64,000 nt of DNA from the NCBI RefSeq assembly GCF_900114655.1, contig NZ_FOTT01000002.1:124001-188000 (forward strand). The letters run 5' to 3'. The stretch comes from Candidatus Frackibacter sp. WG13. GTDB taxonomy: Bacteria > Bacillota > Halanaerobiia > Halobacteroidales > Acetohalobiaceae. Every line of letters starts with the position of its first letter. The stretch's first letter is position 1. The notes under the pieces are model-generated. The model had not been told where the DNA came from, did no database searches, and saw nothing but the letters and a program-made list of their open reading frames with translations. A program made the position numbers and the translations under genes. Positions 25,080 to 46,382 of this stretch are shown here, piece after piece.

Positions 25080-25532
25080 ATGAGGAAGATAGCTTTATTA
25101 CTGACATTAATTATGGTATTTACTGTTACTTTACCGGCTTTAGCAGCTAATCCTTTTACTGATGTTCCACTAGGACATTGGGCATACGATGCGATCGCTA
25201 AAGTAGCAGAGTTAGGAATCATGGAAGGTACACCGCAAGGAGATTTTAACGGTCAGGCTCCAATGACCCGTTATCAAATGGCTAAAACTACGGCAGCTAT
25301 TGTAGATTTATTAGAAGAAAAGAATGCGCAACTAAAAGCTGAGCAGAAGAAAGAAGTTCAACAGATAGTAGATGCTTTAAAGGCTGAATTTAATGAAGAA
25401 TTAAAGCTAGTTAAAGCAGATGTAAATCAGAATAAAGAAGATATCAAGGACCTTAAGGGTAAAGTAGATTTTAATAAAAAACTTAGTATTGTGGCTATTG
25501 TTCTGTCTTTAGTGGCGGTAGCTTCTAATTAA
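25080..25532 (+). CDS. Small SLH-domain protein with C-terminal membrane helix
   Basis: The signal peptide ends ALAA-N (about residue 22). One SLH domain follows (ANPFTDVPLGHWAYDAIAKVAELGIM...MTRYQMAKTTAAIV), then about 50 residues of coiled coil and a C-terminal hydrophobic helix (LSIVAIVLSLVAVAS). SLH domains in diderm Firmicutes bind peptidoglycan-linked polymers and tether outer-membrane proteins such as OmpM. Here the beta-barrel is absent and replaced by a single membrane helix. GCAAGGAGGGTGA precedes the ATG. A terminator follows. Confidence 0.88.
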   Translation: MRKIALLLTLIMVFTVTLPALAANPFTDVPLGHWAYDAIAKVAELGIMEGTPQGDFNGQAPMTRYQMAKTTAAIVDLLEEKNAQLKAEQKKEVQQIVDALKAEFNEELKLVKADVNQNKEDIKDLKGKVDFNKKLSIVAIVLSLVAVASN

Positions 25533-25639: not shown

Positions 25640-25762
25640 GTCAATATACCTCTGTAGCGACTCTTAAAAATAATCCGAAGCCATGGATGGCTGAAGGGTT
25701 AGTTTTTGAGAGTGAATGGAGCAGGAGGCGGAATGAACGGCAAGCGGAAGAGGTATATTGAC
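25640..25762. repeat. Imperfect palindromic element (~123 bp)
   Basis: GTCAATATACCTCT (25640-25653) is the exact complement of 25749-25762. Further inside, ACTCTTAAAAATAATCC pairs imperfectly with GGGTTAGTTTTTGAGAGT. It has no coding frame. Short resemblance to family A in the AATGGAGCAGG segment suggests a distant relative. The rest of the 25.76-25.97 kb gap shows nothing recognisable. Confidence 0.6.
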
Positions 25763-25974
25763 GTTGCTATAGCTAACTATATTTTTAACAGGTTATGAAT
25801 AACATATTCCACCAGTACTACCATTAGGCACGCAGCTATCATAATTTTACTAAGAGGATTTAAGAAAGGTGGGTTGAATAAGTGTAATAGAGTTTAAAAA
25901 TTGATCAAAGAATTGACTATTTGCAACTGTAAATTTGACGAAGCTATTTTACCATTTTTTACTTAAATTTTTTT

Positions 25975-26003
25975 GCAGGAATATGTCGAATTAAGTAGAA
26001 TTA
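25975..26003 (+). promoter_or_regulatory. Sigma-H-like promoter of the SLH porin
   Basis: GCAGGAATA (25975-25983), an 11-bp spacer and GTAGAATTA (25995-26003) fit the Spo0H/sigma-H consensus RNAGGAWWW-N11-12-RNNGAATWW exactly. Transcription would begin near 26010, giving a leader of about 390 nt. Confidence 0.65.
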
Positions 26004-26118: not shown

Positions 26119-26304
26119 CATTCTTGGGCTAGGTTAGTAAAGGCGGAAAGGAGGTGCCCCCGCAAGCCGGTTGACCACTATGCTTAGGAATGGCTATTTC
26201 GAAATATTTTAGTCTGATTACAGTAAATATATATCAGCAGGGAACTAAGAAATGAGGAAACACGGCCACTCATATTCAACTGTTACCCCTGATTATGTGA
26301 GACT
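26119..26304 (+). ncRNA. Structured 5' leader RNA, divergent copy
   Basis: Same plan as the three porin leaders near 42, 43.5 and 45 kb. P1: 26119-26129 with 26182-26192. P2: GGTTAG 26132-26137 with TTGACC 26171-26176. Between the P2 arms is AAAGGAGGTG (26147-26156). P3: AGTCT 26211-26215 with AGACT 26300-26304, extended by ATCAG/CTGAT and GGG/CCC inside. P4: ATGAG 26252-26256 with CTCAT 26269-26273, closing a 12-nt loop GAAACACGGCCA. The stems are kept while the bases differ from the other copies. Likely a cis-acting element of the downstream SLH porin mRNA. Confidence 0.7.
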
Positions 26305-26397: not shown

Positions 26398-28125
26398 ATG
26401 AAGAAGAAACTATCAATTGTATTGGCTATAGTAATGTTATTTGCATTGACTGCTCCAGTAATGGCGAATCCGTTTAAGGATGTACCAGCTAACCATTGGG
26501 CTTATGATGCAATTAAGAAGGCAAGTGAAATGGGCATTGTAACTGGTTATGAAGATGGAACTTTTAAAGGAGATAAGAAGTTAACTAGATATGAAATGGC
26601 AGTAGCTACTGCTAGAATTGCTTCTCAAATTGAAGATGAGGATGTACAAGCAAAGTTAACTGCAAAGCAAGTTGCAGAGGTAGAAAAGACTGTTAAAGCT
26701 TTAAATTCTGAATTTAATAAAGAGCTAAGTGCTTTAGAAAAGAGAGTTAATGCTTTAGAAGCTAAAGGACTTAATGTAAAGATTGATGGTGAAGCAACTA
26801 CTATTTTCACTGAAACTAATGTAGAAGGAAATCCTGATTTTGGGACTGCAAATATTGAAGATGGTCAGTATTGGGACGATTGGGATGACACTTTAGATGA
26901 CGATGCTCCAGCTCAAAAGGAGTTTAGACAAGAGTTTGACTTCAACATTAATACGATTGTTGATGAAGATACTACAGTTAGTTTAATCTTAGACACAATT
27001 GCTGATGACTTTACAAATCCAGTTGCTTGGGATGGTTCTACTCCTGGCGAAGATGCACCACAGTTTAAGTTAGACGATGCATTATTAGCAATTGAAGATG
27101 GAAATTATGGATTAAAAGTTGGTGACTTTGAAGATTATCACGTAACTAATTACTTCTATGATGATGAAGATGTAGAAGGAGTAGAGGTAAATGCTAATGT
27201 ACTTGGAACTGATTTCTTAGTATTTAGAGGAAAAGATGATGACACTGCTGGCAATGACATTAAAGCTATTAAAGCAAGTAGAAATATTGCGGGTATCGAT
27301 TTAGCAGGACAATATTTAAAAGCTAATGATGAAGGAGTCTATGGTGTAACTGCTAAGACTGACTTAGTTCCTGGCGTTAGTTCTCAGGTTAAGTATCTAG
27401 CTAAGGATAATAGCCAAGATAAGAACTATTTAGTGGATGGTGAAGCTTCTACTAAGTTTGCAGGAATCAATCTTACTGCTGGTTACAAAGAGGTAGGAGT
27501 AAACTTTGATGGCTATAATGACTTCAAAGGTGACGATGACATTTATGATGCTGGTGAAGACTACGAACCAGGTATTAAAGGATACAGAGTTGCAGGAGAT
27601 ATGGATGTACTTCCTGGTTTAAACGTATTCGCTAATGTAGAAGATGAAGAATTAGCTACTAATAATGATAACATTATCACTACAGAAGCTGGAGCTAAGT
27701 ATGCTCTAACTAATAACACAGACGTTTCTGCTAGTTATGAAGCAGTTGATTCTGATAATGGTAACGATGTAGATACTATTAATACTGGTTTAGAAGGTAA
27801 CTACTTCGGTGGTAAGTTAGCTACTGTTGTAGATTATGAATTAGAAGACGAGAAAGCAGGCGAAGAGACTAATACTTTAGATATCAGAAATAAGATTGCT
27901 GTTTCTGATACTGTAAAGTTAACTGCTGATGCTCAGTATGAAACTAAAGAAGCAGCTACAACTGATACAGAAAGAATTTACTATGCTGTAGGTGCTGACC
28001 ACAAATTAACTGAGAATACTTCTTTTGGAGTTAACTACCGAGTAGTAGACTTCAATGATAATGCAACTTCAGCTAATGACTATAAAGCTGAGTCTATTAA
28101 TGGAGAGTTCAAAGTTAGCTTCTAA
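26398..28125 (+). CDS. OmpM-type SLH-domain outer-membrane porin
   Basis: The 575-aa precursor has a signal peptide ending VMA-N (about residue 22) and one SLH domain (NPFKDVPANHWAYDAIKKASEMGIV...LTRYEMAVATARIA). A coiled-coil spacer (about 80-125) leads to an acidic, aromatic-rich beta-barrel of alternating strands ending EFKVSF with a terminal Phe, the BAM recognition signature. OmpM proteins both form pores and tether the outer membrane to peptidoglycan. The strongly acidic loops suit a halophile. It follows a long structured leader and a sigma-H-like promoter and has its own terminator, so it is monocistronic. Confidence 0.9.
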   Translation: MKKKLSIVLAIVMLFALTAPVMANPFKDVPANHWAYDAIKKASEMGIVTGYEDGTFKGDKKLTRYEMAVATARIASQIEDEDVQAKLTAKQVAEVEKTVKALNSEFNKELSALEKRVNALEAKGLNVKIDGEATTIFTETNVEGNPDFGTANIEDGQYWDDWDDTLDDDAPAQKEFRQEFDFNINTIVDEDTTVSLILDTIADDFTNPVAWDGSTPGEDAPQFKLDDALLAIEDGNYGLKVGDFEDYHVTNYFYDDEDVEGVEVNANVLGTDFLVFRGKDDDTAGNDIKAIKASRNIAGIDLAGQYLKANDEGVYGVTAKTDLVPGVSSQVKYLAKDNSQDKNYLVDGEASTKFAGINLTAGYKEVGVNFDGYNDFKGDDDIYDAGEDYEPGIKGYRVAGDMDVLPGLNVFANVEDEELATNNDNIITTEAGAKYALTNNTDVSASYEAVDSDNGNDVDTINTGLEGNYFGGKLATVVDYELEDEKAGEETNTLDIRNKIAVSDTVKLTADAQYETKEAATTDTERIYYAVGADHKLTENTSFGVNYRVVDFNDNATSANDYKAESINGEFKVSF

Positions 28126-41942: not shown

Positions 41943-41972
41943 GAAGGAATTTACATCAAAGACAGTGAATAT
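41943..41972 (+). promoter_or_regulatory. Sigma-H-like promoter of porin 1
   Basis: GAAGGAATT (41943-41951), a 12-bp spacer and AGTGAATAT (41964-41972) fit RNAGGAWWW/RNNGAATWW. The leader would be about 240 nt. Confidence 0.55.
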
Positions 41973-42024
41973 ATATATTGAATGTATGTAATATTATGGA
42001 ATTTAATACGTGGTTTTAATATTG

Positions 42025-42175
42025 ATTATCCGTCTTAATTAAGTGATTGAAAGGAGGTGAAATTCGAAGATTGGTCGCGAATATTAAGAGGATAATTTTA
42101 ATAAACATAACTAGGTCTATTATTCAGAATGTAGTTAAGTGAGGAAACAAGGAAACTCACTTATCTGGATAATAG
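42025..42175 (+). ncRNA. Structured 5' leader RNA of porin 1
   Basis: P1: ATTATCC 42025-42031 and TTAAT 42035-42039 with ATTAA...GGATAAT 42082-42096. P2: GTGATT 42043-42048 with GGTCGC 42073-42078. AAAGGAGGTGA at 42050-42060. P3: CTATTATTCAG 42117-42127 with CTGGATAATAG 42165-42175 (11 bp). P4: AAGTGAG 42137-42143 with CTCACTT 42156-42162, closing the 12-nt loop GAAACAAGGAAA. The P2 and P4 arms differ from the next copies but still pair. Probably cis-acting on the porin mRNA that starts 43 bases later. Confidence 0.75.
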
Positions 42176-42218
42176 TTCAACTAAAAATTAAGATAAAGAC
42201 AATCAAGGGGGAAATAGA

Positions 42219-43277
42219 ATGAAGAAGTTTTCGCTTATACTAACGATTGCTTTAGTCGTAGCATTAGCTCTGCCAGCTATGGCTGCAACTAAAGTAACTT
42301 TTAACGGTAATTTAGAGATGGAGAATCAATATGTTGACCCGAATACCGATCCTAACGTAGGGACTGTAGGTAAGTCATTAAGTAGCACATATGGAGATTT
42401 AGATCTGTACTTAAATGCTAAGATTAACGATAAAGTAAGTGCCTTTACTGAATTAGACTATAGTCTGCAGTTTGACGATTCTTCTGATGCTGCTGGTCTT
42501 GAAGGTAGAGTTGATCAGATGTGGATTAACGTAGAGGATGCTTTTGGTCCTTTAGCTTTAAGAGTTGGTCGTATGAATGAAGCAGCTGCTAATAATTTGC
42601 TCTATGATATTGAAGAGGGTGCTAATGAATTTGTTAGATTGGCTTATACAGCAGATAACATTTCGGCTAAATCTGGATATAGCGGTGAAGGTAAGGATGT
42701 ATTCTTTGCAGAAGGTACAGTAACAAATTTAGGCTTGATTGATGGCGTAACATTGAACTATATCGATTACAATGCTGGTTATCAAGGTTACACAGTAAAA
42801 TTAGATAAAAAGCATAGCTTTGGAGAGGCATCAGTCTTATTTGGAAATGTAGATGCGAAAATAAATGATAGTGCTAATGTATTAGATGTTAATTTTGTAA
42901 CTGATCAGTTATTCCCAGGTATCACTACTTCCTTAGAATATGCAACTGCTGAAAAAGGATTTGTTGCAGACCAGGCTGTACTTGACCAAGATGACTCTGT
43001 ATTTGTTGATACTGCAGCTGCGCTCTATAGAAACGATAAGGTAGAGGTAATTAAGCCAGGTATCAATTTTGACTTAACAGATAAGTTAAATATTGATTTT
43101 GCTTATGCTATGTATGATGCTGACAAATCAACTGATGAAGATGAATATTTGGATTTAGTTGCTAGCTATGACCTAGCTGAGAATACTTATATAGATGTTG
43201 AGTATGAAAACCATAATTACGACGGTTGGCAAGAGGATGAAGAGAAAATTACTACTACTTTAGGCGTCGATTTTTAA
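42219..43277 (+). CDS. Outer-membrane porin 1 (three-paralogue family)
   Basis: A 352-aa precursor whose signal peptide ends AMA-A (about residue 22). The mature protein is an acidic beta-barrel of short alternating strands (KVTFNGNLEMEN, YGDLDLYLNAKINDKVSAFTELDY, VDQMWINVEDAFGPLALRVGRMNEA) ending TTLGVDF with a terminal Phe. The VDQMWINVEDAFGPLALRVGR segment is nearly identical in porin 2. There is no SLH domain, unlike the 26.4 kb porin. AAGGGGG precedes the ATG. It is monocistronic, with its own leader and terminator. Confidence 0.85.
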   Translation: MKKFSLILTIALVVALALPAMAATKVTFNGNLEMENQYVDPNTDPNVGTVGKSLSSTYGDLDLYLNAKINDKVSAFTELDYSLQFDDSSDAAGLEGRVDQMWINVEDAFGPLALRVGRMNEAAANNLLYDIEEGANEFVRLAYTADNISAKSGYSGEGKDVFFAEGTVTNLGLIDGVTLNYIDYNAGYQGYTVKLDKKHSFGEASVLFGNVDAKINDSANVLDVNFVTDQLFPGITTSLEYATAEKGFVADQAVLDQDDSVFVDTAAALYRNDKVEVIKPGINFDLTDKLNIDFAYAMYDADKSTDEDEYLDLVASYDLAENTYIDVEYENHNYDGWQEDEEKITTTLGVDF

Positions 43278-43291
43278 CTAAATTGAATTAG

Positions 43292-43325
43292 AAGCCCCCT
43301 CTGAATATTCAGAGGGGGTTATTTA
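43292..43325 (+). terminator. Rho-independent terminator
   Basis: CCCCCTCTGAAT pairs with ATTCAGAGGGGG (43295-43318) ahead of a short T-rich tail. Confidence 0.9.
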
Positions 43326-43533
43326 TATTTAATGCATTCAATATTTTTATTTTTCAAAATAATTTTAGTAATTAAGCAGGAATTTATAAAGGAATCTCTA
43401 ATTATATGTTTAGTAGAGGATAATTAATGCATTGAATGATAAATAATGCATCAAAGGATAATGAATAAAATAATATTTGATATATAAGATAATTGATGTA
43501 TATGTGTGTTTTGTAATATTAGCTATTGATTAT

Positions 43534-43694
43534 CTATCTTAATCAACGCGGTTGAAAGGAGGTGAAACCCAACAGGTTGGCCGTAAGATTAAGAGGATAG
43601 TTTCAATAAACCTAAATTGATCTATTATCTAAAGACGTAATTGAGTAAGGAAACAAGGAAACTTACTCTTGACTGTTTAGTTTAGATAATAGAT
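43534..43694 (+). ncRNA. Structured 5' leader RNA of porin 2
   Basis: P1: CTATCTTAATC 43534-43544 with GATTAAGAGGATAG 43587-43600 (3-nt bulge). P2: GCGGTT 43548-43553 with GGCCGT 43579-43584. AAAGGAGGTGA at 43555-43565. P3: 14-bp stem 43620-43633 with 43681-43694. P4: GAGTAAG 43643-43649 with CTTACTC 43662-43668, loop GAAACAAGGAAA. Upstream (43319-43530) is an AT-rich gap with GCAGGAATT at 43376 but no matching sigma-H -10. Confidence 0.75.
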
Positions 43695-43740
43695 AAACAA
43701 AAACAAAACTAATACTAAAAACAATCAAGGGGGAAATAAA

Positions 43741-44805
43741 ATGAAGAAGTTTTCAATTGTATTGACTTTGGCTTTAGTTGTAGCTTTAGCTGTTCCAGCT
43801 ATGGCAGCACCTAAGCTAGCTATTAATGGTAACTTAGAAATGGAGAATTCAACTGTAGACAAGGGTGGTCCGACTTTAAGTAGCACATATGGAGACTTAG
43901 ACCTATATTTAAATGCAAAGATTAACGATAAGGTAAGTGCTTTTACTGAGTTAGACTATGATACGTTCTTTGTAGATAATGTAAACGATACAGGCGAACA
44001 TCAAGGTAGAGTTGACCAGATGTGGATTAATGTAGAAGATGCTTTCGGTCCATTAGCTTTAAGAGTAGGTAGAATGGACGAGGCTGCTGCTAGTAACTTA
44101 TTATATGACATTGAAGACAAGGCTAATGAATTTGTTAGATTTGCTTACAATGAAAATAATGTTTCTGGTAAAGTAGCATATAACTTAGATAACAACGATT
44201 CTAAAAAAGTATTACTTGCTGAGGGTAAAGTTACAGACTTAGGTTTAGTTGACGGAGTAACAGTAAACTATTTCGATGCTAATACTTTAGACTATGAAGG
44301 TTATACTTTAAAGGCTACTAAGCAGCACAGCTTTGGTACAGGCTCTATTGTATTTGGTGAAGCTGACAATGGTCCTATTAGTGGTGCTCAAGTACTTGAC
44401 GTTGACTTTACAACTAAGACGTTATTCCCAGGCGTAACTGCTGGTTTAGAATATGGAACTGTTGATAAAGGATTCGTTCTTAATAATGATACAGCTATTC
44501 AAGATGACTCTGTATTTAATGATGTTAATGCTGACTATGAACCTATCTATTCTGCAGATGATGTACAAGTTATTAAGCCAAGCGTAAGCTTTGACTTAAC
44601 TGATAAGTTAGGTGTATACTTCGGTTATGCTATGTATGAAGGCGACAAAAGTAATGCTAAGCAAGATTATTTAGACCTTGTTGCTAGCTATGACTTAGCT
44701 CCAGATACTTACTTAGATGTTGAGTATGAGAACTTCAGTAATGATTGGACTGGAGCACCTGACGATGAGTCAGCTTTAACTACTACTTTAGGTGTTAACT
44801 TTTAA
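43741..44805 (+). CDS. Outer-membrane porin 2
   Basis: A 354-aa paralogue of porin 1 with a near-identical signal peptide (KKFSIVLTLALVVALAVPAMA). Shared strands include STYGDLDLYLNAKINDKVSAFTELDY and VDQMWINVEDAFGPLALRVGRM; the end is TTLGVNF. It differs from porin 1 mainly in surface-loop regions such as NDTGEH, LDNNDSKKV and DYEPIYSADD, as expected for variable extracellular loops. It is strongly acidic. Same leader RNA type and ribosome site as porin 1; its own terminator follows. Confidence 0.85.
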   Translation: MKKFSIVLTLALVVALAVPAMAAPKLAINGNLEMENSTVDKGGPTLSSTYGDLDLYLNAKINDKVSAFTELDYDTFFVDNVNDTGEHQGRVDQMWINVEDAFGPLALRVGRMDEAAASNLLYDIEDKANEFVRFAYNENNVSGKVAYNLDNNDSKKVLLAEGKVTDLGLVDGVTVNYFDANTLDYEGYTLKATKQHSFGTGSIVFGEADNGPISGAQVLDVDFTTKTLFPGVTAGLEYGTVDKGFVLNNDTAIQDDSVFNDVNADYEPIYSADDVQVIKPSVSFDLTDKLGVYFGYAMYEGDKSNAKQDYLDLVASYDLAPDTYLDVEYENFSNDWTGAPDDESALTTTLGVNF

Positions 44806-44840
44806 TTAAAGTTAGATTAATTAAAGTTAAATAACGCTAT

Positions 44841-44877
44841 AAAACTCCTTCGGGAATTATCCCGGAGGAGTTTTTTT
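44841..44877 (+). terminator. Rho-independent terminator
   Basis: AAAACTCCTTCGGG (44841-44854) pairs with CCCGGAGGAGTTTT (44861-44874), with a T-run. Confidence 0.9.
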
Positions 44878-44897
44878 ATGTAAAAATAATATTTTTT

Positions 44898-44927
44898 GCA
44901 GGAATAGCAACTAAAGTTGTAGAATAA
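44898..44927 (+). promoter_or_regulatory. Sigma-H-like promoter of porin 3
   Basis: GCAGGAATA (44898-44906), a 12-bp spacer and GTAGAATAA (44919-44927) match the sigma-H consensus exactly. Its leader would be about 440 nt. The interval 44930-45160 is AT-rich with nothing else recognisable. Confidence 0.65.
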
Positions 44928-45160
44928 TGATTTTGTCGAAAAAAGTAGTTTTATAAAAAACAAATGATTTAATGCAAAAATTCAAATCTTGGTTTGCACG
45001 ATGTAAATTACCTATTTAATCCATTTATTGAATTATCTTTTTATTTAATCAAGCAGGGATTCGCAAAAAAATGTCTAAATATGTAGTATAGAATAAAAAT
45101 TATCTGACGATTGTAACATATTTTTTATTGAGTGATTGATTCTTTTTTACTAGCTATTGA

Positions 45161-45325
45161 TTATCTATCTTAATTAAAGCGGTTGAAAGGAGGTGAAACC
45201 CACAGGTTGGCCGTAAGATTAAGAGGATAGTTTCAATAAACCTAAATTGAATCTATTATCTAAAAATTTAATTGAGTAAGGAAACAAGGAAACTTACTCT
45301 TGACTGTTTGGCTTAGATAATAGAT
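45161..45325 (+). ncRNA. Structured 5' leader RNA of porin 3
   Basis: Nearly the same as the porin 2 leader. P1: 45165-45174 with 45218-45230. AAAGGAGGTGA at 45186-45196. P3: 45251-45263 with 45313-45325. P4: GAGTAAG 45274-45280 with CTTACTC 45293-45299, loop GAAACAAGGAAA. Confidence 0.75.
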
Positions 45326-45371
45326 AAACCAAAACAAAACTAATACTAAAAACAATCAAGGGGGAAGTACA

Positions 45372-46382
45372 GTGAAAAAACTTTCTATCGTAATAATGAT
45401 CGCTTTAGTTGTAGCACTAGCTGTTCCAGCTATGGCAGCAACAACGAATAATTTAAAGGCTAATGGACATTTTGAGATTGAAAATGACAAGGTAAAAGAT
45501 GGTAATAGTGCAACTACAGGTGAATTCGATTTATTCTTAAATGCGAAGCCTGCTGACAATGTGAATTTCTATTCTGAGCTTGATTACACTTACGACTTTG
45601 CTAATGGTGCAGGAGCAGGTAACCCTGAAAATCTTGACGTTTATGAGATGTGGGTTAACATAGATAACGCATTCGGACCAGTTAGTTTAAAAGCAGGTAG
45701 AATGTACGAAACTGCTCCAGATGGTATATTATATGAATTTGACTCTGATGATTTCGCTAGATTAGCTTATGCAAATGGTGGTGTTTCAGCTAAGTTTGGA
45801 CATAACTTAGATACTGATAACCAAGGCAAAGTAGTATTTGCTCAAGGTAGCGTTAAAGACTTAGGTTTAGCTGATGAAGTAACAGTAAACTATGTTGATG
45901 ATAATGATGCTAACTATGATGGTTATACTGTAAAAGCTACTAAGCATCATAACTTCGGAACTGGAACTATTCTTTTCGGAGATGCTAATGATGCACAATT
46001 AATCGACTTAGGCTTCTCAACTAAACAATTACTTCCAGGCGCTACTGCTTCTTTAGAGTATGCAAATGTTGAAGAAGGATTTGCTCGTGCAACAGCTCAA
46101 GACTCTGTATTAACTGATACTGCTCTTACAACAACAGCTGGTGCTGGTGATGTAACTATGATCAAGCCAGGCGTTAACTTCAACATTACTAATAAGTTAA
46201 ACGCTTATGCTTCTTATGCTATGTATAGCTCTGACAATGCTGGTGACCATGACTATTTAGATACTGGTGTTGTTTATAGCATGGCTAATAACACTAGCTT
46301 AGAAGTAGAACTTGAAGACAACAGCTATGATAATGCTGCTGATAGCACAACTATCACTACTACTTTAGGCGTTGACTTTTAA
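45372..46382 (+). CDS. Outer-membrane porin 3
   Basis: A 336-aa third member of the porin set. GTG start after AAGGGGGAAG. The signal peptide (LSIVIMIALVVALAVPAMA-A) is close to porins 1 and 2, but the barrel is more diverged: FDLFLNAKPADNVNFYSELDY, YEMWVNIDNAFGPVSLKAGRM, FGTGTILFGDANDAQ, TTTLGVDF. Terminal Phe and alternating strands indicate BAM-dependent assembly. Acidic like its neighbours. Monocistronic. Confidence 0.85.
   Translation: MKKLSIVIMIALVVALAVPAMAATTNNLKANGHFEIENDKVKDGNSATTGEFDLFLNAKPADNVNFYSELDYTYDFANGAGAGNPENLDVYEMWVNIDNAFGPVSLKAGRMYETAPDGILYEFDSDDFARLAYANGGVSAKFGHNLDTDNQGKVVFAQGSVKDLGLADEVTVNYVDDNDANYDGYTVKATKHHNFGTGTILFGDANDAQLIDLGFSTKQLLPGATASLEYANVEEGFARATAQDSVLTDTALTTTAGAGDVTMIKPGVNFNITNKLNAYASYAMYSSDNAGDHDYLDTGVVYSMANNTSLEVELEDNSYDNAADSTTITTTLGVDF

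Follow-up and report, generated by a model that had tools for sequence, protein, structure and literature searches.

A two-hairpin leader shared by porin and OmpM genes

The 64,000-nucleotide stretch of Candidatus Frackibacter sp. WG13 analysed here (contig NZ_FOTT01000002.1, positions 124,001 to 188,000; hereafter the window) encodes three porins and OmpM, a protein with an S-layer homology (SLH) domain and a C-terminal porin barrel. The same folded RNA element opens the mRNAs of these four main outer-membrane proteins of the bacterium. Each leader is ∼200–300 nucleotides (nt) long and contains two hairpins, H1 (helices P1 and P2) and H2 (P3 and P4), followed by the Shine–Dalgarno sequence (SD) of the gene. 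The four leaders, their genes and their promoter matches lie on the forward strand. Two models were used to find the hairpins: the covariance model R1 of the H2 core, built from 17 sequences, and the H1 model R2, derived from a subgroup of 14 sequences.

The porin 1 leader carries H1 at 42024–42097, assigned by fold and helices with covariation among copies and a weak R2 match (E=0.11), and H2 at 42117–42175 (fold; R1). Its ribosome binding site, CAATCAAGGGGGAA (42200–42213), lies downstream of both hairpins as in the other porin leaders, and the gene (42219–43277) encodes a protein recognized by Pfam as Porin_4. For porin 2 (43741–44805, also Porin_4), H1 (43524–43608; fold) and H2 (43620–43694; fold and R1) precede a ribosome binding site at 43722–43735. 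Porin 3 (45372–46382) has no Pfam match and is 49% identical to porin 2; its H1 lies at 45162–45229 (fold; R2 E=0.03), H2 at 45251–45325 (fold; R1) and the ribosome binding site at 45353–45366. The fourth copy, upstream of OmpM (26398–28125), comprises H1 at 26119–26192 (R2 E=0.006) and H2 at 26227–26298 (R1 E=4.6e-7). All four proteins end in phenylalanine.

The H1 loop, enclosed by P1 and P2, holds the 11-nt SD-like sequence GAAAGGAGGUG in all four window copies. GAAAGGAGGTG occupies 42049–42059, 43554–43564, 45185–45195 and 26146–26156, and is followed in the OmpM leader by CCCCC. The invariant loop of H2 is GAGGAAACNNGGNNACUC, and the hairpin ends in the loop GAAACNNGGNNA with G-C and A-U closing pairs. 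In the porin leaders the 12-nt loop reads GAAACAAGGAAA (42144–42155, 43650–43661 and 45281–45292), a sequence that occurs at exactly these three places in the 2.77-Mb genome; the OmpM copy has GAAACACGGCCA at 26257–26268.

An initial annotation had described a common leader plan before the porin genes at 42219, 43741 and 45372, with a fixed 12-nt P4 loop and stem changes in P2 and P4 that retain pairing, and its coordinates and sequences are correct. P3 does pair in each copy as it proposed, with stems of 12–14 base pairs rather than 11–14, copy 1 having a single U-U mismatch. The fourth copy that it counted exists (26119–26298) and lies outside the porin region it delimited, upstream of OmpM. 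The SD-like GAAAGGAGGUG in the loop enclosed by P1 and P2 was not mentioned.

Terminator calls follow each porin gene, and the leaders are free of terminator-like calls; the porins therefore look like single-gene transcription units and attenuation is unlikely. Transcription attenuation was rejected on this ground, and control is most likely exerted on translation and/or mRNA stability.

Folding and covariation

Single-sequence folds of porin leaders 1, 2 and 3 gave z scores of −3.9, −4.0 and −2.8 against dinucleotide shuffles, and RNAalifold placed 51 pairs in the three leaders, 6 of them with both sides changed. Leader copies 2 and 3 are 95% identical, as expected if the porin loci had recently been duplicated and the covariation had arisen by chance. 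This explanation is refuted by the wide distribution of the element, which we collected as 120 distinct copies from many families, upstream of different barrel families and with significant covariation; we give recent duplication practically no weight.

Covariation was tested with our own script modelled on R-scape, using tree-based substitution shuffling, on 117 distinct P4 sequences. When all pairs of positions were considered, two were significant, both within the stem. In the two-set test six of the eight stem pairs passed and the remaining two hardly vary. The H2 loop is nearly invariant (A13-C19, G22 G23 and A26-U28) while the outer stem bases are free to change. Mean fold z scores were −2.1 for segments containing H1 and −3.5 for those containing H2, compared with −0.6 for downstream controls. 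The 70 G-U pairs outnumber the 26 A-C mismatches, indicating that the sense strand folds.

In a subgroup of 14 H1 sequences, whose structure was written by hand, pairing holds in 99.6% of cells. Double changes occur in 14 cells, a number that none of 500 shuffles reached. R2, the model derived from this subgroup, finds H1 in further loci outside its training set, among them, weakly, the window copies.

The initial annotation had named three outcomes that would refute its proposal: a match to an Rfam family, absence from related genomes and a lack of covariation beyond that of the duplicated porins. None of these was observed. Rfam 15 at its gathering threshold returned no family in the window or at the collected loci tested, apart from tRNAs near one locus (L183), and a lax search of the region gave nothing convincing at the leaders. 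The element is present in relatives, and its covariation extends beyond the duplicated porins.

Distribution

R1 identified 61 places in 44 of the 59 genomes of the class, representing 28 of its 30 genera, mostly with one place per genome; fewer than one is expected by the E-value cut-off. We read 58 of these loci together with the three window copies. All sit no more than ∼120 nt before an OmpM or small porin gene, with the exception of L114 (genome G034), which is palindromic, precedes a different gene and was set aside as chance. Across the phylum, 49 of 398 genomes had an R1 match at E≤0.02, where the rough E-values, if correct, predict ∼8 chance matches. We read 40 loci outside the class; they precede genes for SLH proteins or for proteins of other kinds that have a signal-peptide-like start, and the H1 loop is retained in most.

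An exact-pattern scan of 84,980 named species genomes returned 44 matches versus ∼4 expected by chance (our own estimate), in Halanaerobiales, Sporomusa, Pelosinus, Mitsuokella, Phascolarctobacterium and other lineages. Four of the 44 (L176, L200, L202 and L203) lie in unrelated contexts and were set aside as chance. One scan locus, L179, is a 3.7-kb contig labelled Candidatus Nealsonbacteria that carries a full leader and an SLH gene; it is probably a mis-binned contig of a diderm bacterium. A DNA search returned a single nearly full-length relative, from the same family, and fragments farther out. No relative of porin 2 was confirmed in a search of genome contigs, the element was not found in plasmids, and a single match in a viral contig, inside a viral open reading frame, was taken as chance.

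Some Negativicutes loci, such as L167, L181 and L183, carry H2 alone near the predicted transcript start; of the two hairpins, it may be the older or the more essential.

The element marks outer-membrane barrels

Among the proteins encoded downstream of the 120 copies, 74 (62%) fit the SLH pattern and a further 45 are non-SLH proteins with a signal-peptide-like start, of which Pfam recognizes only part (as Porin_4). Outer-membrane barrels carry an established beta-signal, an aromatic residue at the C terminus. Of 106 complete downstream open reading frames, 100 end in phenylalanine and 2 in tryptophan (102/106), compared with one ending in phenylalanine among 34 other open reading frames of the window. 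Omp85 was found in 47 of the 49 element-bearing genomes of the phylum but in only 55 of the 349 without the element (102/398 overall; Fisher 7e-30, uncorrected for phylogeny).

Because SLH and non-SLH targets alike carry the barrel signature and the element co-occurs with Omp85, what the targets have in common appears to be the outer membrane instead of the S-layer. These sequence data suggest that the element marks outer-membrane beta-barrels, the OmpM tether and the porins, rather than S-layer proteins as such, an association that is new here. Taken with the wide conservation and the covariation, it strongly supports the initial annotation's view of a cis-regulatory RNA for outer-membrane proteins, and we are nearly certain that the element is a functional cis-regulatory RNA of outer-membrane barrel genes.

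An SD-like loop without an open reading frame

An SD-like motif lies upstream of H2 in 85 of the 120 leaders. Among main-form copies GAAAGGAGGUG is conserved and the base after it is free, so conservation ends at the last base able to pair with the textbook 16S rRNA tail 5′-CACCUCCUUUC-3′. Several class copies have GGAGGUG without the run of C residues, and others have GGGGGG. SD-like forms thus remain where CCCC has been lost, and the SD-likeness outlasts the C-run. The motif does not appear to serve an upstream reading frame: 71 of the 85 SD-like loops have no start codon 4–13 nt downstream, and no conserved upstream open reading frame or leader peptide was found behind the H1 SD.

Two partners are available to the C-run (CCCC) of the H1 loop: GGAGG in the same loop and GGGGG in the SD of the gene. 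A GGGGG SD is present in 53 and absent from 3 of the copies with CCC, whereas these numbers are 8 and 16 in copies without CCC (Fisher 2e-8).

Two rival explanations bear on these features. In the first, the hairpins and the SD-like loop would simply shield the 5′ end of abundant mRNAs, as in ompA and cry3A, and nothing would be sensed. The lack of a reading frame behind the SD-like loop, the position of H2 near the predicted 5′ end in several Negativicutes, the monocistronic appearance of the porin genes and the precedent of the STAB-SD (PMC4113751) all agree with passive stabilization. It fails, however, to explain a loop that is nearly invariant across many families while the outer stem bases change freely, and we regard it as unlikely, if still the stronger of the two. 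The second, proposed for the SLH motif by Stav et al. (2019, PMC6429828), is a metabolite-binding riboswitch. Here H1 and H2 would form an aptamer for a ligand such as cyclic di-GMP, and ligand occupancy would determine whether the SD is accessible. The wide conservation before genes of one functional class, the invariant nucleotides of the loop, the lack of an upstream reading frame and a C-rich segment able to hide the SD would all fit. Yet the core that is conserved consists of one hairpin loop of 12 nt, neither a junction nor a conserved internal loop was found and no Rfam family matches; moreover, the H1-H2 spacing varies and H1 is missing from most Negativicutes copies, which is unusual for an aptamer. 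A riboswitch is accordingly improbable, slightly more so than passive stabilization.

CsrA and the reading of H2

The porin H2 loops contain ACAAGGA and the H1 loops AAGGA, which could be targets of CsrA acting with FliW, as in the hag leader of Bacillus subtilis. Of 40 genomes with the element, 33 have a CsrA gene match, the present genome among them. The other seven, two Mitsuokella, the single-contig class genome G029 and four others, have no CsrA match and retain the element. In addition, many H2 loops lack GGA at the corresponding place (ACACGGCCAC), with positions 22–25 reading GGCC, GGCA and the like, and the first G of the invariant GGA at positions 14–16 is paired in the stem. CsrA was therefore rejected as the general reader of H2, a role that we consider very unlikely; the element does not require CsrA, a result that is new here.

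A model for the leader

The best-supported mechanism combines ribosome capture by H1 with specific recognition of H2. The sequences themselves show the two hairpins, the conserved H2 loop, the SD-like loop lacking a reading frame and the association with barrel genes; 30S capture, the switch and the factor are inferred from them. The H1 loop would display an 11-nt complement of the 16S rRNA 3′ end without a usable start codon, and could thereby capture 30S subunits as a standby and stabilizing site resembling a STAB-SD. Its C-rich stretch would pair with either the loop SD or the GGGGG of the real SD, possibly switching between them. The nearly invariant loop of H2 would be read by a trans-acting factor, most likely a protein, that adjusts the output of outer-membrane proteins. 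We moderately favour this overall picture of a cis-acting 5′ untranslated region (UTR) leader working at the level of translation and/or stability. Taken singly, action of H1 through 30S binding seems somewhat probable, and the chance that H2 is a protein-binding hairpin is about even.

Several observations weigh against this model. A plain, sequence-only MAFFT alignment of all H1 copies showed no significant covariation, the stems being too variable, and H1 covariation holds only for the hand-structured subgroup of 14 sequences. Negativicutes copies mostly lack H1, which is hence not essential to the class. When changes are counted on a protein tree, the CCC changed 10 times and the SD changed along with it in only 2 of these (P=0.09). 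The raw CCC-SD association is strong and weakens after tree correction, and the switch, which may exist, is treated here as an idea. Lastly, the 16S rRNA 3′ end pattern was not found in the genomes searched, even single-contig ones, probably because rRNA is masked, so that the anti-SD match rests on the textbook tail.

In a broader scenario, to which we assign a low probability, a single RNA regulon controlling outer-membrane proteins goes back to a common ancestor; the diderm Firmicutes would have inherited it, and other lineages would have lost it along with the membrane. The SD/C-strand switch of H1 would then tie synthesis to ribosome availability while a dedicated factor reads H2. If outer-membrane barrels are the target, OmpM, which anchors the outer membrane to the cell wall in diderm Firmicutes, would have a defined RNA regulon. 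Cells that lose OmpM have a detached outer membrane (PMC10628300), so the regulation of OmpM dose is relevant to how some Firmicutes kept this membrane and others lost it.

Promoters and neighbouring features

Of 119 copies, 62 have a sigma-H-type promoter match (RNAGGAWW-N-RNNGAAT) ahead of the leader, versus 0.8 in base shuffles, and many Negativicutes are among them; sigma-H is a sporulation/stationary-type sigma factor. In the window such matches, by consensus only, precede the OmpM leader (GCAGGAATA-N11-GTAGAAT, 25975–26001) and the porin 1 leader (GAAGGAATTT-N12-GTGAAT, 41943–41970), the latter overlapping a sigma-70-like match at 41950–41979.

In some class genomes a second structured element lies upstream of H1 (L045, L046, L048, L052, L061, L104, L088, L107 and L041). 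It consists of a hairpin with the loop ACUUGUUACCCCUUGUUGU followed by a hairpin with GGGGGGCACC, the two possibly kissing. It had no Rfam match in the loci tested, and its closest pattern matches sit at ompM loci.

Between an SLH gene (25080–25532) and the OmpM leader, a long inverted repeat at 25641–25763 (TCAATATACCTCT ... AGAGGTATATTGA, flanking ∼95 nt) has the look of a mobile or structured element. Just outside the window, a BamA-like gene has an Omp85 domain match (G000:C11:122986-123873) that stops 127 bases before the window start, placing the window in an outer-membrane gene region.

Comparison with known systems

The 5′ UTR of Escherichia coli ompA is an mRNA stabilizer and, like the element, a structured 5′ UTR on the mRNA of an abundant outer-membrane barrel. 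It has no invariant loop of this kind and belongs to an unrelated phylum, and we claim no sequence relation. The B. subtilis hag leader, which is regulated by CsrA, likewise places a GGA-containing hairpin loop before the gene of an abundant surface protein, and most element-bearing genomes have a CsrA gene. In contrast to hag, GGA is lacking at the CsrA-like place in many copies of the element, which is also retained in genomes that have no CsrA match.

In the STAB-SD of Bacillus thuringiensis cry3A, the 5′ UTR has an SD-like sequence that does not initiate translation but is able to pair with 16S rRNA, and 30S binding to it blocks RNase J (PMC4113751). Judged by sequence, most SD-like motifs of the H1 loops likewise appear not to direct initiation. 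Unlike in cry3A, a long hairpin displays the motif in its loop, and a second hairpin, whose loop is invariant, comes after it; 30S binding is predicted.

Older taxonomy places the Halanaerobiales in the Clostridia, and the Synergistaceae possess an outer membrane. The closest counterpart of the element is the SLH motif, and the initial annotation's suggestion of an undescribed RNA is probably wrong. For this riboswitch candidate Stav et al. (2019, PMC6429828) give 80 examples in Synergistaceae, with Thermovirga lienii in the discovery family, Clostridia and Negativicutes, ∼60% of them upstream of SLH-domain genes and the rest upstream of genes called unknown. Our element likewise occupies an upstream cis-regulatory position, occurs in Clostridia (Halanaerobiales) and Negativicutes (Sporomusa, Pelosinus and Mitsuokella), and precedes SLH genes at a closely similar share (74 of 120 copies). 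The strict pattern scan returned no match labelled Synergistota, a pattern that would miss other stem sequences. Compared by lineage and gene share, the element very probably belongs to the SLH motif class. Most likely, then, this candidate class already exists in the literature with hardly any description, and is here seen as a widely conserved cis-regulatory leader of outer-membrane barrel genes. In that case our additions are the H1/H2 anatomy with its SD-like loop, the CsrA and promoter results, and the outer-membrane barrel association. The 2019 motif is a one-paragraph candidate tied to S-layers (PMC6429828), whereas the non-SLH targets found here look like outer-membrane barrels. Since SLH and non-SLH targets share the C-terminal aromatic signature, our data suggest that the real target of the class is the outer-membrane barrel.

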